From: Deltaproteobacteria bacterium
GTDB lineage: Bacteria; Desulfobacterota; Desulfobulbia; Desulfobulbales; Desulfocapsaceae
DNA length: 64,000 bases
Direction of reading: 5' to 3'
Assembly: GCA_026388715.1 (NCBI GenBank)
Contig: JAPLJF010000010.1
Location: forward strand, 186,001 to 250,000
Positions within the stretch are counted from its first letter, which is position 1. Every line of letters begins with the position of its first letter. The translations under genes were made by a program, and so were the position numbers. The notes under the pieces were generated by a model, which did not search any database, was not told the origin of the DNA, and was given only the letters and a program-made list of their open reading frames with translations. Below are positions 51,448 to 63,633 of this stretch, piece after piece.

Positions 51448-52353
51448 TTAGAGGCTGGAAGCCCCGATTGTATCGCTGAGAAGAAGGCTGATTGTTTCAG
51501 GTATGCGGGAGAAGTCGTGTGGGCGGGTCAGGGAGTAAATGGGAGTTGTTTTTGCCAGTTGAGCGCATTGCTCAAACCGGGTGGTGGTGATTGGTGTTGG
51601 GATCTTTTCTGTGAAATGACGACAGGAGGCATTGGAGGTCAGGGCAAGAAATGATTCCTGAAAGTTGAGGCGTTGCAGGGAAAGATCGTTACCGATATCC
51701 AGGAGGAAGATGGCGGCAATCGGTGTGACATGGGGGTGAAATCTGTTCGGCAGGGATAAATTTCGTTTTTCTACTTCCGGAATGATCCGGGTGTGATGAT
51801 TGGGGTTTTCATCCAGATGAAGCAGGCTGTCCGGCCAGAGTTTTATATCTGGAAACCCCGGTCTTACAAAATTCCTCGTGTCTTTTATGTCAATTGCCGC
51901 CAGGTCATCGGTAAGCAATGTTGCCCCGGCAGCCACCATTTGTGAGGCCATGGTGGATTTGCCCTGCCCTTTTTCTCCAATAAAGATAAATGCCTTGTTG
52001 TTGACAACTACGGCACTGCCGTGAAGGGAGAAAATGCCTCGCTGCATGAGCAGCAAGGCGGATACCAGACCGAGGAGTGAGAGGATGATTTCTGATTCCG
52101 GAGTATTGAAGAAAGGTTGGACTGTTATCCGACATCCATCGTCAATTTGATAGGCATCCGTATCGGGCCAGGAGAGGATGCATCTATTGGTTTCAACCAG
52201 ATAACTCAGACCAAAGTCTGTTTGCAATAACGGACAAGGAATGACGTCACCATAAAGCACGGTGACATCCGGAGGTAAATCGCAAGCAGGATTATACCCT
52301 GCTATGGGAATCATCGATTCAAAAACTAAATCAAAGAGTTGGTTTTTGAACAT
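51448..52353 (-). CDS. Lasso-peptide HPr-kinase-like kinase
   Basis: The 301 residues resemble the HPr kinase/phosphorylase fold found in lasso-peptide clusters, where such kinases phosphorylate the side chain of a C-terminal serine of the precursor. Visible motifs are FSLHGSAVVV (His111-Val115), the P-loop GEKGQGKST (126-134) and TLLTDDLAAID (Asp149/Asp150, catalytic pair). The N-terminal third is a family-typical beta domain. It is the last gene of the minus-strand cluster, after the precursors. The role as a peptide kinase rests on family and context, not on tests. Confidence 0.88.
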   Translation of the reverse strand: MFKNQLFDLVFESMIPIAGYNPACDLPPDVTVLYGDVIPCPLLQTDFGLSYLVETNRCILSWPDTDAYQIDDGCRITVQPFFNTPESEIILSLLGLVSALLLMQRGIFSLHGSAVVVNNKAFIFIGEKGQGKSTMASQMVAAGATLLTDDLAAIDIKDTRNFVRPGFPDIKLWPDSLLHLDENPNHHTRIIPEVEKRNLSLPNRFHPHVTPIAAIFLLDIGNDLSLQRLNFQESFLALTSNASCRHFTEKIPTPITTTRFEQCAQLAKTTPIYSLTRPHDFSRIPETISLLLSDTIGASSL

Positions 52354-52476
52354 GATATTTAGCTATCTCTTTACAGGTCTCTTTGGTTCCCATGTATTGT
52401 ATGAAAAACAAATGAGATTTAAGACCTGTGATGTCCCGAGTTTCCCTTAACCTTTCCGAGGAAGATTGATACAGAA

Positions 52477-52653
52477 TTAGTGAGAACCCCAGTGAAATAT
52501 CCAAAATGAATCCATATTTCCATTAATCCCATTTCCTTTAGTCAGCTTTGACACATCACCATAACAAATCCGTTTGGGAGTCTTGTATGTTTTTAATGAG
52601 GTGGTGGCTGGAGCCTTTGCTTGAGACATCTTGTGATTATTATCCCGCTTCAT
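52477..52653 (-). CDS. Lasso-peptide precursor A1 (58 aa)
   Basis: Too short for routine calling, but the minus strand reads MKRDNNHKMSQAKAPATTSL, then KTYKTPKRICYGDVSKLTK. The leader motif is YxxPxRxxxGx5TK with Thr at position -2. The predicted core is GNGINGNMDSFWIFHWGSH (19 residues), starting with Gly1, with Asp9 suitable for a nine-residue macrolactam ring. Trp and Phe in the tail are plausible plugs. The leader has Arg where the consensus has Leu (PxR instead of PxL). The codon-level frame is continuous to the TAA at 52477. It lies 124 bp before the kinase. Confidence 0.8.
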   Translation of the reverse strand: MKRDNNHKMSQAKAPATTSLKTYKTPKRICYGDVSKLTKGNGINGNMDSFWIFHWGSH

Positions 52654-52830
52654 TTTGTCTTTTTGAGTATCTCGTAAAAAAGTCTGGAACTATCAATTTT
52701 AGATTAGAGGCCTGAACCCCGGCTGTACCGCTGAATAGTTACGAGTTTTCTTCATTTTCGGTGAGCTTCTCAAACCACAAAAAGACTTGTGACGAGGCCA
52801 TTACTTTCTTGATTGTCTGTTTTTCTGTAA
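52654..52830 (-). pseudogene. Relic of a second lasso kinase gene between precursors A1 and A2
   Basis: The 52704-52736 segment is closely similar, with one indel, to the last codons of the kinase gene near 51450-51482 (TTAGAGGC, then CCCC, then CGCTGA). The rest of this gap resembles the A2-A3 gap at 53014-53132 (AAAAAAGTCTGGAACTATC and CACAAAAAGACTT). This indicates tandem duplication of a precursor-plus-kinase unit with loss of one kinase. Confidence 0.6.
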
Positions 52831-53013
52831 CTAATACGAGCGCAGGTGACCTTTATGTGTTGCATCATAAACCCTACCGCGAGTCCAGGTCGCCTTGGTC
52901 AGCACGGATACATCACCGTAACTGGTCCGTTTGGGAGCTGTGTATTTTTTTAATGAGGTGGTGGCTGCTGGAGTCTTTGCTTGAGACATCTTGTGATTAT
53001 TATCCCGCTTCAT
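52831..53013 (-). CDS. Lasso-peptide precursor A2 (60 aa)
   Basis: The protein MKRDNNHKMSQAKTPAATTS continues LKKYTAPKRTSYGDVSVLTK. It has the same leader family (YTAPKRTSYG, TK before the cut). The core would be ATWTRGRVYDATHKGHLRSY (20 residues) if Thr stays at -2. The first acidic residue is then Asp10, one beyond the known 7-9 ring sizes. Cleavage one residue later would give Thr1-Asp9. The peptide ends in Tyr. Leader residue Leu is replaced by Arg, as in A1. Confidence 0.8.
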   Translation of the reverse strand: MKRDNNHKMSQAKTPAATTSLKKYTAPKRTSYGDVSVLTKATWTRGRVYDATHKGHLRSY

Positions 53014-53132
53014 TTTGTATTTTTGAGGATTTTGTAAAAAAGTCTGAAATTATCTGTTTTTGGTGCGCTTCTCGAATCACAAAAAGACTTTTGATGAGGC
53101 CTTACTTTTTGATTGTGTATTTTTTGTAACCA

Positions 53133-53312
53133 TTATGACCTATTAGCGCTAAAATTAGAAAATTTTGAATCATAATGTGATCCGCCATTATTTGCCTTGG
53201 TTAGCACGGATACATCACCGTAACTGGTGAGCCTGGGGGCCTTGTATGTTTTTAATGAGGTGGCAGACTGGCTGGTTGCTTGAATAGATTTGTAATTATT
53301 GTTGTGTTTCAT
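53133..53312 (-). CDS. Lasso-peptide precursor A3 (59 aa), C-terminal Ser
   Basis: MKHNNNYKSIQATSQSATSL, then KTYKAPRLTSYGDVSVLTK, has the canonical leader motif YxxPxLxxxGx5T in full. The core is ANNGGSHYDSKFSNFSANRS (20 residues), with Ala1 and Asp9 forming a nine-residue ring. The C-terminal residue is Ser, the expected phosphorylation site of the cluster's kinase. The ATG overlaps the stop of the cyclase gene (ATGA, 53309-53312), so translation is coupled, with GGAGGAAGGA as ribosome site. Confidence 0.9.
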   Translation of the reverse strand: MKHNNNYKSIQATSQSATSLKTYKAPRLTSYGDVSVLTKANNGGSHYDSKFSNFSANRS

Positions 53313-55222
53313 CTTCCTTCCTCCTGATAGTATGTCTTTTGTAGCCATTTCGCCAGTGATAAGGATTGGAGAATAAAGCCTAACTCAACCTGTCTTATAT
53401 CATTTTTATGATCATTGAATCGGTCATGGGCCTTGGTCAGATTAATATTATTAATAAAATTATAGCTGTAATCAGGCAGGGTGTCAAGTGAGGACGAGAG
53501 CCAGTTGGGAATTTGTGTCGAAAAAGAATGAATCATATTGGCGCTGAAATCGGTTTTCGATTTTCTTTGGCTGATGCTCTCCGGCAGGATATCTTTCAGG
53601 GCGTGGCGAACGATATGACGATTCAGTCCCTGATGAAGTTTCTGGTCGGCAGGCAGGGCCAGGCAGAATTCAATAAGCCGTTTGTCGAAAAAAGGAAACC
53701 GCTGTTCAAGGTGAAATCTTGCCCCTAACTTGTTCATAAACTCCAAGGCGTAGGGATGGAGGGGCTGGCTGATGTTCAGCAGATGGAAGGTCTGTTCTTT
53801 TTGATAGATGTCAGGCAGGCGGCGAGCATGTTCAAACAGTCGATTGCTTATCCCTGTTTTTTGGATCAGCTCCGGGTTGAGTTGGTCGGTTAAATTCAAA
53901 AATTCCCTCTGGTCGCGAGGGGTATAGAGTTGACGTGGGAGTTTGTGTAGGAAAATAATTTTGTTTATTCTCAAGAGGTATCTCATCAAGGCCATCTTTG
54001 AGAGAGGGTTTATGTCCTGTTTTTCCTTGATAAGTTGCAGCCATTTTCCTTTCCTTGCCAACTCCGCGAGCAATGTGTATCCGTAGGAGACAGCCGAATC
54101 GCCATCATGCCCGTCCAGAAGAACCCTGACTCCTTCGTGTTGCGCCATGTGCAGGAGATTCCAGCCCATGAAGAAGTGGGGAGCAAAGAAAGGTTCGTCT
54201 TCCCATTCCACCATTGTCTCGAATGCCACAGAAGCATCTAATTGATCTGCCTGGAGGAAATGCGGAATGATATCGTATCGATCAAGGATTGGTTGGAAAT
54301 AACGCCGTTCGTCACATTCGCTAATGGTATCAAAGACTCCGGAAAATGTGTGCAGGGGGCCGGTTAAACAATGTCTGAGCGGGCCTGCCGCCATGCTGAC
54401 AATGGAGGAAGAGTCAAGGCCGCCGCTGAGGTAGGAGCCAACAGGAGAGGACGATCGAAGACGGCACCGGACCGCCTCGGTAAAGATCTCCCTGAACGCC
54501 TCCGCGTATTCATCCCGGTCGGAGAAGTGTATCTGCGCAGGAGAAGGCTGCCAGTAACATGCTGTCTGGCATTTTTTTTCAGGCGAGACAAGGAGGGTAT
54601 GGCCGGGAGGCAGCCGGAGGATATCCTGGTAAAACGTAGAGCTGTTGTCTAAGGATACGGCGGTTAAGAAGTCGGCAATTTTTTCTTCATTGCATTGCTG
54701 TCTGACTTCAGGAAGACAGAGCAGTCCCTTGATCTCGGAGGCAAAGGCAAAGAAAGTGCTGGGGCAGGTATAATAAAAAGGTTTTACCCCCATGTGATCC
54801 CGGGCACAGAAGATGCGGTTGCGGGCTTTGTCCCAGATGGCAAAGACAAAGTCGCCAAGCAGGTGCTCTGGACACTTTTCTCCCCATTTCTGGTAGGCGG
54901 CAAGGATAAGCCGGCTGTCGGGGATAGAGGCGGTGGCGGAGAGGGAGAGGGAGAGGCCAAGAGCTGAAAAGAGATCTTCACGGTTGTCCAGACGGGCGTC
55001 AGCGGTAATGACCAGCCCGCTTATCAAATCTTCGAAGGGGAGATGTTCCCCAATAGATTCGGGGGTGGTATGCAACTGGCAGTGGACGAGGCCCGCATGA
55101 CCGGATTTCCACATATGATACCCGTCCGGACCCCGATGAGCAAGGGCCAGGCGCATGGAATGAAGTTGCTCAGAGGCAACTTGTCTGTCATTCAAATAGA
55201 GGATACCGGCAATTCCGCTCAT
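53309..55222 (-). CDS. Lasso-peptide macrolactam synthetase (C protein)
   Basis: The 637 residues are an asparagine-synthetase B homologue. It activates the Asp side chain with ATP and closes the isopeptide ring. The N-terminal glutaminase-like domain starts MSGIAGILYLND: the catalytic Cys of true AsnB (MCGI) is Ser, so no glutamine hydrolysis is expected. The synthetase domain has the PPi loop GSYLSGGLDSSSIVSMA (near residue 265) and later conserved segments (LLDGHDGDSAVSYG, FPFFDKRLIEFCLALP). It lies 18 bp after B2. The stop overlaps the A3 start. Confidence 0.95.
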   Translation of the reverse strand: MSGIAGILYLNDRQVASEQLHSMRLALAHRGPDGYHMWKSGHAGLVHCQLHTTPESIGEHLPFEDLISGLVITADARLDNREDLFSALGLSLSLSATASIPDSRLILAAYQKWGEKCPEHLLGDFVFAIWDKARNRIFCARDHMGVKPFYYTCPSTFFAFASEIKGLLCLPEVRQQCNEEKIADFLTAVSLDNSSTFYQDILRLPPGHTLLVSPEKKCQTACYWQPSPAQIHFSDRDEYAEAFREIFTEAVRCRLRSSSPVGSYLSGGLDSSSIVSMAAGPLRHCLTGPLHTFSGVFDTISECDERRYFQPILDRYDIIPHFLQADQLDASVAFETMVEWEDEPFFAPHFFMGWNLLHMAQHEGVRVLLDGHDGDSAVSYGYTLLAELARKGKWLQLIKEKQDINPLSKMALMRYLLRINKIIFLHKLPRQLYTPRDQREFLNLTDQLNPELIQKTGISNRLFEHARRLPDIYQKEQTFHLLNISQPLHPYALEFMNKLGARFHLEQRFPFFDKRLIEFCLALPADQKLHQGLNRHIVRHALKDILPESISQRKSKTDFSANMIHSFSTQIPNWLSSSLDTLPDYSYNFINNINLTKAHDRFNDHKNDIRQVELGFILQSLSLAKWLQKTYYQEEGR

Positions 55223-55240
55223 AATGGGAGTATCTTTTTG

Positions 55241-55684
55241 TTATTTTGGGGAAATTTTATCAAGAGAGGGAAATTCCCGGTACCGTTCCAGACCAGGAAG
55301 CCGGCCAATCAGGATTATGTCATCCAGGCTCAGCCAGGCATGGGCCTCGAAATTCTGTTGGGCATCATTAGCCACGCCGATATGGAGCCTGGTCTTATGG
55401 CCGTGGCCGGCAAAGAGGATCTGCCCGGCCAGGGCCTTGGACAAACAGGTGGAATAGGGGATGAACAATGCGGCAACATTCAGCAACCTGGCAATGCGTT
55501 GCGGAGGAACAGGGCTTGGATTGGCCACATATTTCTCACACGATAATCTCTGGACACGATTGAAAATGTGTTGCGTGGATGTCACCTGCAGACGGATCCG
55601 GTACGTAGCCAACAGGTACAAGGCATTAAAAAAAAGAGCCTTTTCTCTACCCGGCAAGCGAAAGAATTTAAGTAACCTGCCCAT
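55241..55684 (-). CDS. Lasso-peptide B2 leader protease (transglutaminase-like)
   Basis: The 147 residues match the B2/PF13471 lasso maturation protease. The catalytic triad is visible: Cys80 in FIPYSTCLSKALAGQILF, His115 in EAHAWLSL and Asp121 or Asp122 in LDDIILIG. It cuts the leader after the TK site. The 17-bp overlap with B1 suggests coupled translation. Length is as expected for a split B2. Confidence 0.94.
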   Translation of the reverse strand: MGRLLKFFRLPGREKALFFNALYLLATYRIRLQVTSTQHIFNRVQRLSCEKYVANPSPVPPQRIARLLNVAALFIPYSTCLSKALAGQILFAGHGHKTRLHIGVANDAQQNFEAHAWLSLDDIILIGRLPGLERYREFPSLDKISPK

Positions 55685-55991
55685 TTCCCACAGTGATCAA
55701 TTTGTTATCGGCAAGATCTTTAAGAAAAGCAAGAAGGTCCCTCCGGCACTCTTCCTCCTCCACCGCATACTCGGCCATGATTCCCTGATAAACGTCTCGA
55801 AAACTCTTGGGTTGCTCCAGAAGGATCCATATCATTGTCCCCACCTCATCCAGACCGCTGTAGGCGCCTGACGCCAGATCCAGGATCACCGTCTCCCCTT
55901 CAAGCTCGGTGGAGATCTTATCTTCGCCCCGGCAGAGGATAAGATTGTCGAGTTCCTCGTTTTCTAAAGTAAAAATTTCCGAAAATGACAT
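55668..55991 (-). CDS. Lasso-peptide B1 (PqqD-like leader-binding protein)
   Basis: The 107 residues form a RiPP recognition element of the PqqD type: MSFSEIFTLENEELDNLILCRGEDKISTELEGETVILDLASGAYSGLDEVGTMIWILLEQPKSFRDVYQGI. It binds the leader's YxxP region and presents the precursor to B2 and C. The ATG at 55991 is preferred (AAGGTGG upstream); an in-frame TTG at 55997 is possible. It is slightly longer than most B1 proteins (about 80-95). Confidence 0.93.
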   Translation of the reverse strand: MSFSEIFTLENEELDNLILCRGEDKISTELEGETVILDLASGAYSGLDEVGTMIWILLEQPKSFRDVYQGIMAEYAVEEEECRRDLLAFLKDLADNKLITVGNGQVT

Positions 55992-56071
55992 AAACAACCA
56001 CCTTTGAGTTTAAGAAAACTAACCATTATACTTGATACCCGCAATCTTTCTTCAACCCTTCTTCTCAATCC

Positions 56072-56896
56072 TCAGTAATGTAACAGAGATCCCTCTTTCC
56101 TGGCAACCTTGAGGCTGGCATAAAGGGCGTAAATCCCAATCGCCAGCAGCAGAATTGAGAACAGGGCAAGGATAATAAGCTGTTTTCTGATTTCAAATAT
56201 TCCGGCCCCATTGAGCAGGACCTGGCGCATGGCCTCCAGTCCGTGGGTGATGGGCAGCATGACGGAAAAGGGTTTGAGCCAGGCCGGCAGGACGCTCACC
56301 GGATAGAGCATGCCGCCGAGGAGACCGGAACCCATGGCCATGAAGGTACTGATCGGGCTCCCCCTTTTGAAGGCAATAATAAATGCCGCTGACAACAGTC
56401 CCAGGCCAGAGAAGGGCAACAGGGTCAGAAAAAAGGTGATCAGGAAAGTGGCGAGCCCTGGTATCCGTAATTGGGCCCCGAAAATCAGGGTGCCGAAAAG
56501 CAGATAGAAGACGACGCGCAGGCTGGTGGCCAGGAGATTGTAGGCATAGGATGAAAGCAGGATGGTGATGATGGAGGTGGGGGTGACCAGCACTGCTTCG
56601 AGGGTACCGAGCATCTGGGCATTCCTGATCTCATTGGCAAAGGTATCGGTGGAGATGGTGAGATAGTCGGTAAAGGCAATGCCGATCAAGACAAAGGCAA
56701 AAAAGTCGCCGCCGTAGGGGGCGAGGACCGGCAGGCTCTGGCCATCGAACATTCTTGCAACCAGTGAAAAGGTAAAGGTGGTCAGAAGGATGCCGACGCC
56801 CTGCATGAGAAACTGCAGGCGATAGCTGGCCGCAATCTTGAAATCGCGTACCATAAAGGCCAGGGGCTTACCGATAAGCGGAAGAAGATCTCTCAT
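56072..56896 (-). CDS. ABC-2 type permease of the lasso cluster
   Basis: The 274-residue membrane protein has six hydrophobic segments typical of ABC-2 permeases (FLMQGVGILLTTFTFSLVARMF, FFAFVLIGIAFTDYLTISTDTF, ILLSSYAYNLLATSLRVVFYLLF, AFIIAFKRGSPISTFMAMGSGLLGGMLYP, and a last pair). It pairs with the ATPase gene, overlapping it by four bases. Its likely job is export of the mature lasso peptides and self-protection. The order of genes supports this. Confidence 0.9.
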   Translation of the reverse strand: MRDLLPLIGKPLAFMVRDFKIAASYRLQFLMQGVGILLTTFTFSLVARMFDGQSLPVLAPYGGDFFAFVLIGIAFTDYLTISTDTFANEIRNAQMLGTLEAVLVTPTSIITILLSSYAYNLLATSLRVVFYLLFGTLIFGAQLRIPGLATFLITFFLTLLPFSGLGLLSAAFIIAFKRGSPISTFMAMGSGLLGGMLYPVSVLPAWLKPFSVMLPITHGLEAMRQVLLNGAGIFEIRKQLIILALFSILLLAIGIYALYASLKVARKEGSLLHY

Positions 56897-57885
56897 GTGA
56901 TTGCCTCAGGACGCCCCTTCCTCTGAGTGACAAGCTCGGTAAAGGCCGCTTCCAATGGTCTTTTGATCTGACTGCATTCATAAACCCCAACTCCATTCTC
57001 GGCAAGAGATTTAAGCAGCTCAGGAACCCTGGCGTGGTTAATAGTCAGGGTGCAGGCGTATGCTCCGTGCTCTTTGTCAAAGGCGAGCTGATAATCCTGC
57101 TGGCTTTGCAGAGATGGGTGCAGGGTGTCCACGACTATTCGGTAACTCTGTCTGTGTCCCAGACAGTTATGAATCTCGGCTGGAGTCCCGCTTTGCAGGA
57201 TCCGTCCGTGGTGGAGGATGGTCAGCCGGTCGCAGATCTCATCAGCCTCAGTCAGATTATGGGTGCACCAGAGGATGGTTTTTTGTTCTTTAGCTGCGAG
57301 GGTGTTTCTGGTCAGATCAAGAAGGCTGCGGGCGGCAATAGGGTCAAGGCTGGCAGTGGCCTCGTCGAGCAACAGGACTTCTGGCTCGGAGAGCATGGCC
57401 CTGGCAATGGCCAGCCGCTGTTTCTGACCGGCGGAATAGGACATGAAACGGAAGTCTGCCTTGTCTGTCATACCGGTCAGGCCAAGGACCCTGGCGATCC
57501 GCTGAGTTTTGTCCGTGCCCCAGAGGTTATAGAGGCTGGCGAAGAAACTGAGGTTGTCCCGGCCGGTGAGCCGCCAGTAAAAGGTGCGGTCGTTGGTGCT
57601 GACCAGCCCTATTTTTTCCCGAACACGATGTGATTGGCTGCAGATATCAAATCCGGAAATGGTGCCGCCGCCCTGGTCAGGGGTGATCAAGGTGGCAAGA
57701 ATCTTGATAAGCGTTGTCTTCCCTGCACCATTGGGGCCTAACAGCCCCATAATCTCCCCCTGATTCACAGTAAGGGAGACATCCTCCAACGCCTTTACCG
57801 GGTAAGATTTTCGGAACAGGAAAGTCTTCCAGTTCCGCTCGGTGAAGGATTTGGAAATATTATGCAGATCAATCACTGGGGCCAT
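56893..57885 (-). CDS. ABC transporter ATPase of the lasso cluster
   Basis: The 330 residues form an ABC-2 type ATPase: Walker A GPNGAGKTTLIKIL, signature SYSAGQKQRLAIARAML, Walker B VLLLDEATASLD. A C-terminal domain of about 90 residues is common in this class. Many lasso clusters encode a single fused export pump; here ATPase and permease are separate, which is less common. It is the first gene of the cluster in transcription order. A repeat of the GGGGACGCTACC type lies just upstream. Confidence 0.92.
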   Translation of the reverse strand: MAPVIDLHNISKSFTERNWKTFLFRKSYPVKALEDVSLTVNQGEIMGLLGPNGAGKTTLIKILATLITPDQGGGTISGFDICSQSHRVREKIGLVSTNDRTFYWRLTGRDNLSFFASLYNLWGTDKTQRIARVLGLTGMTDKADFRFMSYSAGQKQRLAIARAMLSEPEVLLLDEATASLDPIAARSLLDLTRNTLAAKEQKTILWCTHNLTEADEICDRLTILHHGRILQSGTPAEIHNCLGHRQSYRIVVDTLHPSLQSQQDYQLAFDKEHGAYACTLTINHARVPELLKSLAENGVGVYECSQIKRPLEAAFTELVTQRKGRPEAIT

Positions 57886-57911: not shown

Positions 57912-57931
57912 AAAGGGGACGCTACCCTTTT
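57912..57931 (+). repeat. GGGGACGCTACC-type palindromic repeat, copy 1
   Basis: AAAGGGGACGCTACCCTTTT has a short palindromic frame AAAGGG/CCCTTT. It is repeated inverted at 58334-58353 and again at 59675-59696. This is the look of short REP-like sequences associated with RAYT transposases. Confidence 0.7.
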
Positions 57932-58247
57932 ATGCCCTTCGGAATTCCCCTTGGATTGGCTGAACACGATCTATCCTTGCTTTGCGTTTTGGGGAGTGCA
58001 TTGCGTTCCATATATCATTTCTTTTTTGCAGGTTCAGCCAAAAATCTGCGGTATTCCCGAAAGCTTTTGCCAGAATCAACGCCGTATCAACTGTGATCGT
58101 CCGCTTGTTGTTGCAAAGTTCGTTGACAGTCTTTCGACTTACCATCATAGCTTCTGCCAGTCCATCCCGGGTAAGCCCTAAAGGTTCCAGGAACTCTGTG
58201 ACTATCATTTCTCCAACCGTTACCGGTTGCTGCTTTGTCGTGATCAT
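57930..58247 (-). CDS. HigA-type antitoxin (XRE family)
   Basis: The 105 residues start MITTKQQPVTVGEMIVTEFLEPLG and have the HTH GLTRDGLAEAMMVSRKTVNELCNNKRTITVDTALILAKAFGNTADFWLNLQKRND, the HigA/VapI signature. The ATG at 58247 is chosen for GAGGA upstream; an in-frame ATG at 58310 would add 21 residues of no clear homology. No HigB toxin gene is adjacent, so it is a solitary antitoxin or a regulator. It is between two repeat copies, next to fic. Confidence 0.9.
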   Translation of the reverse strand: MITTKQQPVTVGEMIVTEFLEPLGLTRDGLAEAMMVSRKTVNELCNNKRTITVDTALILAKAFGNTADFWLNLQKRNDIWNAMHSPKRKARIDRVQPIQGEFRRA

Positions 58248-58333
58248 ATCTGGTTCCTCATCTATAGCTGTGGTTGTCGAGATACACGCTTTCAGCTTCT
58301 CCCCTGTCATTGTCCCACTGGAAAATCGATCAT

Positions 58334-58353
58334 AAAAGGTAGCGTTCCCTTTT
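58334..58353 (-). repeat. GGGGACGCTACC-type repeat, copy 2 (inverted)
   Basis: On the minus strand it reads GAAAAGGGAACGCTACCTTTT with one change against the others. It sits four bases after the fic stop, between fic and higA. Confidence 0.7.
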
Positions 58354-58357
58354 CCTG

Positions 58358-59548
58358 TTACTCGACTCGTGTCGCCGCCTCCGGATAGAGATCCGGCAGC
58401 AGGAACTGAAGAGCGTCCAGCGGCAAGGCGAAACTCACCACGCTCACATGGCTGGCGGATTTAACCAGACCAATGCTGATCAACCGGGAAAGTAACGCCC
58501 GGCTGACCCGTTGACCCAACCCGGTCATTTGTTGAAACTCTCCACGGGAAACAGGCCCTGCTGCGAAAAGGTGATAAAGCGGCAACACCGCCTCCGGTCG
58601 TAAAACCTTGTCTTGCGCCATACGGAACGAAATCAACCCTCGAATCCGCTCCTTCATCTGCCCCAGATCCAGCATACGAGCCATGAATCCAACCTGATCC
58701 AGACACTGATCAAGAAAAAAATGGCACCAGTTGCGCAGACCCTGCTCGCTCAAATTACCCCGCCCATCAAGGTCCCCCTGCCGGGGCTCATCGGCATCCG
58801 CCAACCTGGCATAGTAGTCCTGCTGTCGCCGGGCCAACCCCCGGTTTACTGACCAGAGCCCCTGGGTCAGGGGAAACAGCGCCGCATGCGTATGCAAACG
58901 CACCGCCCGGCCGTTGCCATCGGCAAAGGGATGAATCCAGGCCATACGCTGATGCGCGCAAGCAATAGCAATAAGGCGCTCTTCCCAGGATCGAGACGCT
59001 GCATACACCTCATCGTATCGTTTGAAAAATGCGGGCAGTGATTCCGCAGTCGGCGGCACATGGTGTCCCACACTCCGCAAGTCACAGCGCAGCCCCCCCG
59101 GCTCCAAAAGAAGACCGTCGGCAGTGGTTCTGTCCGCTTCAGCCAACCGGCCATACAAAGCCGCGTGCGCCCGCTGAACAAAGGCGGCCGGATAAGGAGA
59201 CTCGCCAGCCTCAACCAGCAACTCCAACTCAATTTCCGCCTGGATATGGGCCACCGCTACACGCTGCAAGCGCGCGATGCCAGGCTGATCCGAGAAATTT
59301 TTGAGCAGTGCCTGACGAATTCTATAGGGATGCGTACCCTGCCCCTCGATACGGTTGCTGTAATAACTATTCATCTCTCGCAGTAACACACGTAATTCCG
59401 CCAGAGTGGCTGCATGTGCCATCGCACCGAGACGCAGAGACTGCTCCACGACCTGGCTTGCCTTAGCGCACAACACGTCCATCTCCTTCTGCGGCAGCAG
59501 AGGCTCGAATTGATGCGGGAAAGAGTAAAGCGAAGAAGTCATATCCAT
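58358..59548 (-). CDS. Fic domain protein (class II, AMPylating-type)
   Basis: The 396 residues form a Fic enzyme that transfers AMP or a related group to a protein. The catalytic motif HPFADGNGRAVR is canonical. The N-terminal inhibitory helix motif is visible in SNRIEGQG ([S/T]xxxE[G/N] type), so this is a class II, self-inhibited Fic. The N-terminal extension and C-terminal winged-helix-like part (LYHLFAAGPVSRGEFQQMTGLGQRVSRALLSRLI) match the longer Fic proteins with a DNA-binding-like tail. The start is among four nearby candidates (TTG 59566, ATG 59554, 59548, 59542). No classical antitoxin partner is adjacent. Confidence 0.93.
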   Translation of the reverse strand: MDMTSSLYSFPHQFEPLLPQKEMDVLCAKASQVVEQSLRLGAMAHAATLAELRVLLREMNSYYSNRIEGQGTHPYRIRQALLKNFSDQPGIARLQRVAVAHIQAEIELELLVEAGESPYPAAFVQRAHAALYGRLAEADRTTADGLLLEPGGLRCDLRSVGHHVPPTAESLPAFFKRYDEVYAASRSWEERLIAIACAHQRMAWIHPFADGNGRAVRLHTHAALFPLTQGLWSVNRGLARRQQDYYARLADADEPRQGDLDGRGNLSEQGLRNWCHFFLDQCLDQVGFMARMLDLGQMKERIRGLISFRMAQDKVLRPEAVLPLYHLFAAGPVSRGEFQQMTGLGQRVSRALLSRLISIGLVKSASHVSVVSFALPLDALQFLLPDLYPEAATRVE

Positions 59549-59583
59549 AAGCATCCCAAGATGCAAAATCGTTGTTGCCGGTT

Positions 59584-59835: not shown

Positions 59836-61227
59836 CTACATCGCGCCCTTACCTGTAAGAACGATCCGGATTGTCCGCAGAAATATCATAAGATCAAGAG
59901 TTATGCTCCGGTTCTTGATATAGTAGAAATCATACATCAGTTTTTGGCGCGTATCTTCGATGGAATTGCCGTAGCGGTAATTGATCTGCGCCCAGCCGGT
60001 GATTCCGGGCGTTGCCATGTGCCGTTCGGGATAATAGGGAATCTCCCTGGTGTACATCTCCACCAGGCTGAGCGCCTCCGGCCTCGGACCGATCAGGCTC
60101 ATTTCACCCTTGAGAATATTGATCAACTGGGGCACTTCATCCAGCCGCGTTTTGCGCACGATTTTGCTCACCCGGGTGATGCGGCTGTCATTGTCCGTAG
60201 TCCAGTGCACGTTGTTGCGGTCAGCGCCGTCGGTCATGGTTCTCAGCTTCCAGGCCAGGAAAGGTTTGCTCCCCCTGCCCATGCGCAACTGGGAGTAGAA
60301 TACCGGCCCCCGCGAATCGAGCTTGATCAGAAGGGCAGCGAGGGGAAACAGGGGCAAGGCCAGGCAGAGCCCGACACAGGAGACCAGGATATCGCTTGCA
60401 CGTTTCAGGTACCAGAAGTAACGCTTATTCGAAGTGCTTAATGCAAGGATGAACCAGTTGTCATTGAGATGGTCGATCGGCACCTTGCCTGTTATCTGCT
60501 CGATAACTTCTCTGAAATCTGCAACCTTGATCTTTCTTTGCATGCATTCCAGCAGAAGCCTGAGCAGTTCATCATCCAGGGTGGGTACTGCGACGATAAC
60601 CTGATCAATATCCCTTTCCGCAGCAATCGAGACCAGATCCTGTGTGCTCCCCAGGCGAGGTAACATGTCCAGCGCCTGGCTCCCGTTTCCCCGGGAGACA
60701 TAGCCGGCAATCGTGGTGCGAAGATAGGGATGGGAGCTGATGAGTTGCGCCATTTCCGAACTTTTTTCCCCATCACCGACAAGGAGGGCCCGCCATTGAA
60801 TATGGGAAAGCATCTGTTTGCTGATGAAGTATCGGAAAAAGAAGATAAGAGTGAATGCGCTTACATAAAAAATGATAAACACCGCGCGTGGAACTGGTTT
60901 TCGGAAGAAAAAGAAGATGAACGCCGACAAAATAGAGCTTGCCAGCAGTCCAGAGCCGAGGGTCCCAGCCTGCTGGGTAAAACGTTGTGGTACCTTGTGC
61001 AGGGTGTAGAGGTCAAAAATAAAGAAAAGGAGGAGCGTGGAAAGAAAGAGGGCAATAAAGCCCCAGCCTTGTTCATAAATGAGGTCAAGGGTAAAATGGT
61101 GGCCCTGATGACCAAGGAGGCTGGCGATGATGAACGAGGTGAACATCGCCACACCATCACTAATCAGTAACAGCGCCTCTTTTTCTTGAATACTTGTTCT
61201 CATTGATGAAATAATCCCCTTACGCAT
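59836..61227 (-). CDS. Polyprenyl-phosphate sugar-1-phosphate transferase (WcaJ/WbaP-like)
   Basis: The 463-residue inner-membrane enzyme starts an exopolysaccharide or O-antigen unit by moving a hexose-1-phosphate to undecaprenyl phosphate. It has four N-terminal membrane helices and a CoA-binding-like middle domain. The C-terminal bacterial sugar transferase domain reads KRASDILVSCVGLCLALPLFPLAALLIKLDSRGPVFYSQLRMG, KLRTMTDGADRNN, TRLDEVPQLINILKGEMSLIGPRPE and YPERHMATPGITGWAQINYRYG. The N-terminus (ATG at 61227 or 61203) is uncertain. It is part of a surface polysaccharide region. Confidence 0.93.
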   Translation of the reverse strand: MRKGIISSMRTSIQEKEALLLISDGVAMFTSFIIASLLGHQGHHFTLDLIYEQGWGFIALFLSTLLLFFIFDLYTLHKVPQRFTQQAGTLGSGLLASSILSAFIFFFFRKPVPRAVFIIFYVSAFTLIFFFRYFISKQMLSHIQWRALLVGDGEKSSEMAQLISSHPYLRTTIAGYVSRGNGSQALDMLPRLGSTQDLVSIAAERDIDQVIVAVPTLDDELLRLLLECMQRKIKVADFREVIEQITGKVPIDHLNDNWFILALSTSNKRYFWYLKRASDILVSCVGLCLALPLFPLAALLIKLDSRGPVFYSQLRMGRGSKPFLAWKLRTMTDGADRNNVHWTTDNDSRITRVSKIVRKTRLDEVPQLINILKGEMSLIGPRPEALSLVEMYTREIPYYPERHMATPGITGWAQINYRYGNSIEDTRQKLMYDFYYIKNRSITLDLMIFLRTIRIVLTGKGAM

Positions 61228-61711: not shown

Positions 61712-62827
61712 ATGAATAGATATTTTCTCAAAATAGTTCAACCTTTTCCATTCAGGGAAAAAATACGAATTAACCGAACAATATTGCTCGACTGTAAAAA
61801 ACTTGCTGTAGAATATAATGTGCTACTGTTATTCTATATGCAGTTGAAGCGATACTTAAAAGAAACAGGGTCTGATGAGGTTGTCAAAAGTTTTATACAA
61901 GAAGAAAAGCAAACTATTCTACAAGTAGTAGCTCTTTCATTGCCACAACGAGCACTTGAGAAAGATGTCCTCTGTTTGTTGGGTCAGGAAAACATTCCTG
62001 CAATTGTGTTAAAGGGAAGTGCAATTTCCCAGGATATCTATCAAAACATCAATTCCAGGACATCCTGTGATATTGATCTTCTTATAAAAGAATCAGATGT
62101 TGAAATTGTAGATAGTATCCTTGTTAATAATGGTTTCATTCGTTCTGACCCCGAACCATTGCCTTTCTTGCGATATCGACGGCATCATACGACATATTTA
62201 CCCAAAGATTCCTGCCAACAAATTCCAATTGAAATTCATTGGAGTTTCTCTATCCCCGGATTTTTCAATTTCTCGTCTCAGCAAATATGGCAACAAGTTG
62301 AAGAGCATAAAGATGGGACCCTCAAGTTGTCATCACAGGTGAATCTTATTCAGCTTTTGATGCATCATCATATGCACGCTTTTAAGCAATTGAGAAATGT
62401 GATCGATTTGTTCTGGGGGATTTATGTTTATGATAATAAAATTGACTGGTCTGATTTTGCTGAAAATATTAAACAAATAGGATTGCTTGGTACTACAAAA
62501 AATACTATCAAGCAAATTGAAGACCTATGGCCGGAAAGTAGCAAGGGACTACGCGGGTTACAAATTTTAAAAAATAGAACGAACAAGACGCTATTTTTTT
62601 TACCTGTTCACGGTCTGATCAAGTTAGAACCAAATGCAGGCCCCCTATGCATAAAAGATAAAATTATTTTTCGGCTGGCCCTTGATAGTTGGGATACTCG
62701 AATTTTTTCCTTTATGAAATCTGTTCTGCCTTCACCTAAAATTATAGAGGAGCTCTATAAAGATGACAACAACAAAGGAATGATAAGGAATTATTTACGG
62801 TTTATCCGTTGGCGCTTCTTCACATAG
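61712..62827 (+). CDS. Nucleotidyltransferase family protein (PF14907-like)
   Basis: The 371 residues include IPAIVLKGSAISQDIYQNINSRTSCDIDLLIKESD, with the GS...D.D pattern of a minimal nucleotidyltransferase, IEIHWSF, and a helical C-terminal part with HHHMHAF. This is the uncharacterised NTP_transf_5 family. The gene looks markedly more AT-rich than its neighbours, so recent transfer is likely. Family members occur in polysaccharide loci and in some RiPP clusters; here it is between two glycan genes and about 9 kb from the lasso precursors, on the other strand. Function unknown. Confidence 0.8.
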   Translation: MNRYFLKIVQPFPFREKIRINRTILLDCKKLAVEYNVLLLFYMQLKRYLKETGSDEVVKSFIQEEKQTILQVVALSLPQRALEKDVLCLLGQENIPAIVLKGSAISQDIYQNINSRTSCDIDLLIKESDVEIVDSILVNNGFIRSDPEPLPFLRYRRHHTTYLPKDSCQQIPIEIHWSFSIPGFFNFSSQQIWQQVEEHKDGTLKLSSQVNLIQLLMHHHMHAFKQLRNVIDLFWGIYVYDNKIDWSDFAENIKQIGLLGTTKNTIKQIEDLWPESSKGLRGLQILKNRTNKTLFFLPVHGLIKLEPNAGPLCIKDKIIFRLALDSWDTRIFSFMKSVLPSPKIIEELYKDDNNKGMIRNYLRFIRWRFFT

Positions 62828-62868: not shown

Positions 62869-63633
62869 TTACCTTTGTTGTCCAAGCTTCTGTAAAAACA
62901 CCCGCCATAAAAACAACGGGCTTGATATGAAATTACGCTTAAATAGTCTTTGTGGCTCTTGTAGGAGTCTTGGCAGCCATTCCAGCCCCATCCTCTGAAA
63001 AACAGGATGGGAACGCTTGACGTTGCCTACATAAAAGTCAAACACTGCGCCCACTGCCCCGATAAACTTAACATCCAGCCGGTCCCAGTGCTGATCGATC
63101 CACTTCTCCTGCTTGGGGGCGGTCATGCCGACCCAGAGCACATCGGGCCGGGCTGCGTTGACAGCCTCCACCATCTTCCGGCTCTCCTCTGCACTGAATT
63201 CCGGCTTGTATGGCGGGGAATAGGAACCGGCAAACCTGATATCGGGGTACTCCACTGCCATTTTTTCCTTAATCGCAGCCAGGGTCTCTTCGCTGGAACC
63301 CAAAAAGAAGTAGCTCTTCCCCCCCCTCTTGTTCAAATGGGCACTTAACCCCCAGAAGATATCGCTGCCGGTGACCCGCTCCCGGATGGTGCCGCCCAGA
63401 ACCTTAGAGGCAATGATGATGCCGACCCCGTCCGGGGTGACGAGGTCGGCGTTGTGGATCGCCTGCTGGAATAGAGGGTCATTGTTAGCCTCAACTAGAG
63501 AATGGGGATTGGCGCAGACAAAGACCTTGCCTTTCTCGCCGGCATCAAGCCATTTGTTAATCAGGTCAACACATTGATCAGGCAGTTGACTGGTTACCGA
63601 ATAGCCGAGGATGTTTTCAGTTGGTATCTGCAT
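62869..63633 (-). CDS. WecG/TagA/CpsF-family glycosyltransferase
   Basis: A 254-residue membrane-associated glycosyltransferase that adds the second sugar to a lipid-linked intermediate. The conserved VCANPHSLVEANNDPLFQQAIHNADLVTPDGVGIIIASKVLGG, the RERVTGSDIFWGL motif and LWVGMTAPKQEKWIDQHW are all visible. Length matches the family. It lies on the same strand as the truncated glycosyltransferase upstream, consistent with one polysaccharide operon. Confidence 0.94.
   Translation of the reverse strand: MQIPTENILGYSVTSQLPDQCVDLINKWLDAGEKGKVFVCANPHSLVEANNDPLFQQAIHNADLVTPDGVGIIIASKVLGGTIRERVTGSDIFWGLSAHLNKRGGKSYFFLGSSEETLAAIKEKMAVEYPDIRFAGSYSPPYKPEFSAEESRKMVEAVNAARPDVLWVGMTAPKQEKWIDQHWDRLDVKFIGAVGAVFDFYVGNVKRSHPVFQRMGLEWLPRLLQEPQRLFKRNFISSPLFLWRVFLQKLGQQR

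Follow-up and report, generated by a model that had tools for sequence, protein, structure and literature searches.

The window analysed here is a stretch of 64,000 nucleotides (nt) from a Deltaproteobacteria bacterium of the Desulfobulbales (contig JAPLJF010000010.1, positions 186,001 to 250,000). Nine of its genes, all on the minus strand and running from position 57885 down to 51448 in the order D1-D2-B1-B2-C-A3-A2-A1-K, very probably make up a real and complete lasso-peptide operon of the kinase type (paeninodin-like), judging from their sequences. D1 and D2 encode an exporter, B1, B2 and C the maturation proteins, A1 to A3 three precursors, and K a kinase. A first-pass annotation of the same DNA had placed these genes on that strand and in that order, and all nine are indeed present.

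The gene that opens the cluster, D1 (56893..57885, minus strand), encodes a DrrA-like ABC-transporter ATPase (ABC_tran 112.5 bits, cut-off 25; 236.8 bits against the drrA model, under that model's cut-off). Its stop codon is overlapped (ATGA) by the start of D2 (56072..56896, minus strand), an ABC-2 permease (ABC2_membrane 43.7 bits, cut-off 26.9); with both proteins over their Pfam cut-offs, the split ABC exporter proposed earlier is borne out. B1 (55668..55997, minus strand; TTG start) is a PqqD-like recognition element (RRE) for ribosomally synthesized and post-translationally modified peptides. It scores 63.2 bits against PqqD (cut-off 23.4) and 69.6 bits against lasso_PqqD_Bac, slightly below the cut-off of 80, and resembles the solved lasso B1 proteins 9x90 (7.7e-15) and TbiB1 5v1u (1.2e-13), in agreement with the earlier PqqD-like call. 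B2 (55241..55684, minus strand), which overlaps B1 by 17 nt, is a transglutaminase-like leader peptidase: it scores 71.2 bits against NF033537 (cut-off 33) and 66.1 bits against Transglut_core3 (cut-off 26). Of the Cys80/His115/Asp triad named in the first-pass annotation, Cys80 and His115 do not vary among 20 homologues, whereas the Asp, a putative third residue, does. The AsnB-like, macrolactam-forming cyclase C (53309..55222, minus strand) starts 18 nt after B2, contains SGGLDSS and scores 698.9 bits against NF033535 (cut-off 525). As had been read from the sequence, it is without the glutaminase Cys: in the cyclase alignment, Cys2 is replaced by Ser2 in C and its homologues (15/15).

Three precursor genes lie between C and K. 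A3 (53133..53312, minus strand; leader model 5e-7) encodes 59 amino acids with the predicted core ANNGGSHYDSKFSNFSANRS, the ring residue Asp9 and a C-terminal Ser. Its start is most likely at 53312, with the Shine-Dalgarno sequence GGAGGAAGGAAG upstream and the ATG overlapping the C stop as ATGA. A2 (52831..53013, minus strand; leader model 1.3e-6) has the core ATWTRGRVYDATHKGHLRSY, with Asp at position 10 and a penultimate Ser, and A1 (52477..52653, minus strand; leader model 1.0e-6) has the core GNGINGNMDSFWIFHWGSH, with ring Asp9 and a penultimate Ser. The leader model was built from the precursors and collects 35 precursors adjoining such cluster genes, about 31 of which carry an Asp or a Glu within core positions 7-9. 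The Y-P-G-TK leader motif attributed to the three genes was right, and A1 and A3 show the full precursor pattern, that is, a Y-x-x-P...G leader, Thr at -2 and an acidic residue at core position 7-9. The A2 core proposed earlier was overstated, its acceptor Asp being at position 10 and not 9. A3 passes the lasso leader model NF033521 (19.2 bits, cut-off 19); the three precursors (21.0, 19.3 and 26.6 bits) do not reach the 33-bit cut-off of NF033528 (lasso_cyano) and are not counted as its members. The cluster offers three candidate lasso peptides with predicted core-minus-water masses of 2140.931 Da (A3), 2156.928 Da (A1) and 2356.194 Da (A2); A3 with one phosphate would have 2220.897 Da.

The last gene, K (51448..52353, minus strand), encodes an HPr-kinase-like tailoring kinase with the residues His111-Lys132-Asp149-Asp150. 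None of the four varies among 13 kinases, one of which comes from a Priestia cluster with a paeninodin-family annotation, and a profile of the 13 K proteins matches HPr kinase structures (E 1.5e-10), which upholds the HPr-kinase-like assignment made earlier. A His-Lys-Asp-Asp motif has been reported to be essential in lasso kinases (PMC9266682), and K carries it. A tree built from 59 kinases places K in a 27-member clade (99/99) that also holds the kinase from the Priestia plasmid cluster (L139); that kinase is annotated 'aldolase', its cluster as paeninodin family.

The family to which this cluster belongs is common in related bacteria. A B2 protein over the NF033537 cut-off occurs in 45 of 258 genomes of the window's order and in 23 of 395 genomes of a phylum sample. 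The block D1-D2-B1-B2-C-A-K is found again in L089, L091, L095 and L096, and in L016 from another family, while L017, of the same genus, has the same block with K and a precursor ahead of C. D1 adjoins D2 in L016, L017, L022, L060, L064, L072, L076, L080, L089, L091, L095 and L096. The recurrence of the block, the B2 counts and the shared leader argue that the cluster is not a product of chance. When a single cyclase protein was used as query, genome contigs yielded three loci only and viral contigs no match. The lasso-peptide maturation cluster that the first-pass annotation had recognized is supported by a cyclase without the glutaminase Cys, a B1 RRE with a B2 peptidase, scores over the cut-offs of family models, catalytic residues that do not vary, a canonical leader motif shared by 35 precursors of related clusters, and conserved synteny. 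Its claim of new lasso peptides was overstated with respect to novelty, as lasso B2 genes are common in the order and kinase-bearing clusters have been published. Given the conserved gene order and the B2 count in the order, the locus is a member of a kinase-type lasso family that recurs in this lineage and not a new class; details of its tails, its cores and a putative promoter could be tested cheaply.

The three precursor genes are tandem copies with diverged cores. Leader DNA is 90% identical between A1 and A2, 83% between A2 and A3 and 77% between A1 and A3, and the noncoding spacers after A3 and A2 are 88% identical. The identity of the core DNA (58% for A1/A2, 59% for A2/A3) is no higher than that of shuffled sequence; the A1/A3 cores align with too many gaps to be informative. 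Change in the cores has thus outpaced that in the noncoding DNA beside them, a pattern that diversifying selection would produce, as would replacement of the cores once the gene had been duplicated in tandem. Other ribosomal peptide families are well known for the same combination of conserved leaders and variable cores. Three further observations concern precursors in other loci. A second precursor in L016 (12651-12830) has the core GCSDGNYTDQAFPIHTPKKDLTFTQ, which strikingly resembles, across phyla, the Priestia paeninodin-family core GSGEYTDAAFPTHTPKGDLTFES. L073 (128-8500) contains two cyclase-precursor units, with a truncated kinase frame behind each and B1/B2 on the opposite strand; the first acidic residue of one of its precursors is core residue 11. 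Near B1-, B2- and K-like genes of L113 (10021-10736) are three short tandem open reading frames in which the motif YEKPEL..YEDLSDVT is repeated; they may represent a further peptide family.

The tails of the three cores differ at the site that a kinase would be expected to use. The published rule is that lasso kinases phosphorylate a C-terminal Ser (PMC9266682). A3 ends in Ser, whereas A1 ends in -GSH and A2 in -RSY, with Ser next to last in both. In the A2/A3 alignment, the A3 end TCA TAA stands opposite TCG TAT TAG of A2, so that a one-codon shift of the stop makes a terminal Ser penultimate. Ser is the last residue in 16 of the 35 precursors and the penultimate one in 8 of the remaining 19, compared with a Ser share of 9.2% at the other tail positions; within the K clade, 7 of the 11 precursors without a terminal Ser have it in the penultimate place. 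Ser stands at -1 or -2 in 19 of 22 loci in the K clade and in 6 of 20 outside it (Fisher p 0.0004, the L145 plasmid precursor being uncertain and related rows in the count not being independent). Two points speak against a general preference: the pattern had been noticed before it was put to the test, and the clusters of the f62 order, whose kinases belong to other clades, have no such Ser pattern. We therefore regard the penultimate Ser as a lead and not a rule, and limit it to the window's kinase clade. That order (family f62, genome G121) carries a lasso B2 gene in 24 of 41 genomes, mostly with other-clade kinases and with no terminal Ser in the precursors. Use of a penultimate Ser by lasso kinases could be tested cheaply on this cluster.

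A sigma-70-type promoter sequence, TTGACA-17-TATAAT, lies within the 3′ end of C, upstream of A3 (53459..53487, minus strand). It is the only site in the region with a 12/12 match, and its -10 box ends 147 nt ahead of the A3 start. A wide promoter scan of the region was at chance (7 found, 7.4 expected), and we therefore limit the claim to this one perfect and conserved site. Among some 50 aligned cyclase genes, those of L089, L091, L092 and L096, whose products are 47-50% identical to the window protein, also have TTGACA at this codon position, with identical spacing. The five TTGACA sites are spelled by different amino acids (L-D-T in the window, then I-D-R, V-D-N, I-D-I and I-D-K), and the -10 boxes of the window and the other four are TATAAT, TATTAT, TATAAT, TATGGT and TACGAT. 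When synonymous codons were resampled and the genes taken as independent, the five scores together had a probability of 2e-7 and the five TTGACA boxes by themselves one of 3e-5; the mean score at this position was 11.0/12 compared with 7.6/12 at the best other aligned site. The precursor of each of the five loci either overlaps the C stop or begins no more than about 20 nt from it. Both boxes are lost in L017, the closest relative (66% identical), where the precursor is ahead of C; the site is also absent from L016, where the precursor follows C by 33 nt. No internal promoter in lasso clusters was found in a literature search. An extra precursor transcript from within the cyclase gene would be cheap to test.

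From these data we propose the following course for the system. The promoter inside C would transcribe A3-A2-A1-K apart from the enzyme genes. K would phosphorylate Ser before folding, at the C terminus of A3 and at the penultimate position of A1 and A2. B1 would bind the leaders of A1 to A3 and pass them to B2, which would cleave after the Thr-Lys that closes the leader; C would then adenylate the side chain of core Asp9 and join it to the new N terminus, giving a nine-residue ring round the tail, and D1-D2 would export the finished peptide. A more far-reaching version, in which the kinases of the clade accept a last or a penultimate Ser (making the published rule too narrow) and one cyclase with a promoter in its own gene closes nine- and ten-residue rings on three diversified precursors, seems to us very doubtful as a whole.

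Several observations weigh against the proposed kinase-type lasso operon. K by itself scores 23.4 bits against Hpr_kinase_C, under the Pfam cut-off of 33.3. Neither the structure model of K (mean confidence, pLDDT, 49; three sequences) nor that of B2 (pLDDT 74; two sequences) gave a Foldseek match at E <= 0.001, although the top matches included HPr kinase/PEPCK entries for K and, weakly, transglutaminase-like entries for B2, and a PDB sequence search found no B2 relative; we give these models little weight. A1 and A2 lack a clear Shine-Dalgarno or other ribosome-binding site, and one extra codon in the ring segment of A2 moves its Asp to position 10, which makes the A2 product, including its cyclisation, uncertain. 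The last two points, together with the absence from A1 and A2 of the C-terminal Ser described for lasso kinases (PMC9266682), would also fit a cluster in which A3 alone works and is phosphorylated, while A1 and A2 are copies in decay whose translation is poor or whose peptides are not cyclised. We consider this a possibility of some substance but on the unlikely side, since the frames, leaders and Thr-Lys of A1 and A2 are intact, the A1 core is compatible with a nine-residue ring and a bulky tail, and in-frame core changes beside similar leaders are unlike random decay. Alternatively, A2 may yield a lasso with a ten-residue ring. To our knowledge, the sole example of such a ring so far is a variant of fusilassin/fuscanodin made by engineering. 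PMC8498205 mentions a ten-residue ring of engineered origin, and a literature search found no natural one in lasso clusters. The combination of Asp10 with Thr at -2 in A2 favours it, as does L075 of the same genus, where full-length cyclase and kinase frames accompany a precursor whose first acidic residue is also at core position 10 (GQTVILAYLD). Even so, it is unlikely: these are two cases only, A1 and A3, which the same cyclase serves, have Asp9, as do most relatives, and a one-residue change of ring size usually lowers the yield (PMC13352647).

Two other explanations involve the neighbouring genes. Polysaccharide genes lie close to the cluster (59836-61227 and 62869-63633, both on the minus strand, with a sugar transferase and a WecG-type glycosyltransferase), and the AsnB-, PqqD- and HprK-like genes could in principle form a polysaccharide-associated cassette with no lasso connection; the lasso-specific C and B2 models that are passed, and the three precursors with a conserved leader between C and K, make this extremely improbable. 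The product of the lasso operon might also be phosphoglycosylated, for which pseudomycoidin, from a cluster with a kinase and a nucleotidyltransferase, is the precedent (PMC8498205). The window likewise has a kinase and a nucleotidyltransferase gene (61712-62827, plus strand); no second NTP_transf_5 gene was found in the genome (2.97 Mb), and NTP_transf_5 genes occur near several related lasso clusters. We nevertheless hold this to be quite unlikely, given that, in contrast to the pseudomycoidin cluster, the gene is 3.8 kb off from D1 and on the other strand, with HigA-like, Fic and sugar-transferase genes between and polysaccharide genes around it. Directly upstream of D1 (57930-59566, minus strand), the HigA-like antitoxin gene adjoins the Fic-domain gene, and no HigB-like toxin was noticed beside it.

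The lasso operon is close to the paeninodin-type clusters (PadeK, ThcoK; order C A K B1 B2 D), with which it shares the split B1/B2, the cyclase, a precursor directly after C and an HPr-kinase-like K with His-Lys-Asp-Asp, in the same clade as K of the Priestia plasmid. Unlike these, it opens with a two-gene ABC-2 exporter, encodes three precursors and ends with K, and two of its cores have a penultimate instead of a terminal Ser. In relation to the cyanobacterial-type families, C passes NF033535, while the precursors resemble NF033528 but stay below its cut-off. The Sphingobium yanoikuyae cluster (SyanK; reported order A B1 B2 C K D) is likewise Gram-negative, with a split B and C-terminal kinase tailoring (PMC5067487, PMC9266682); the window cluster differs from it, in a comparison of gene arrangement, in precursor position, exporter position and precursor number.

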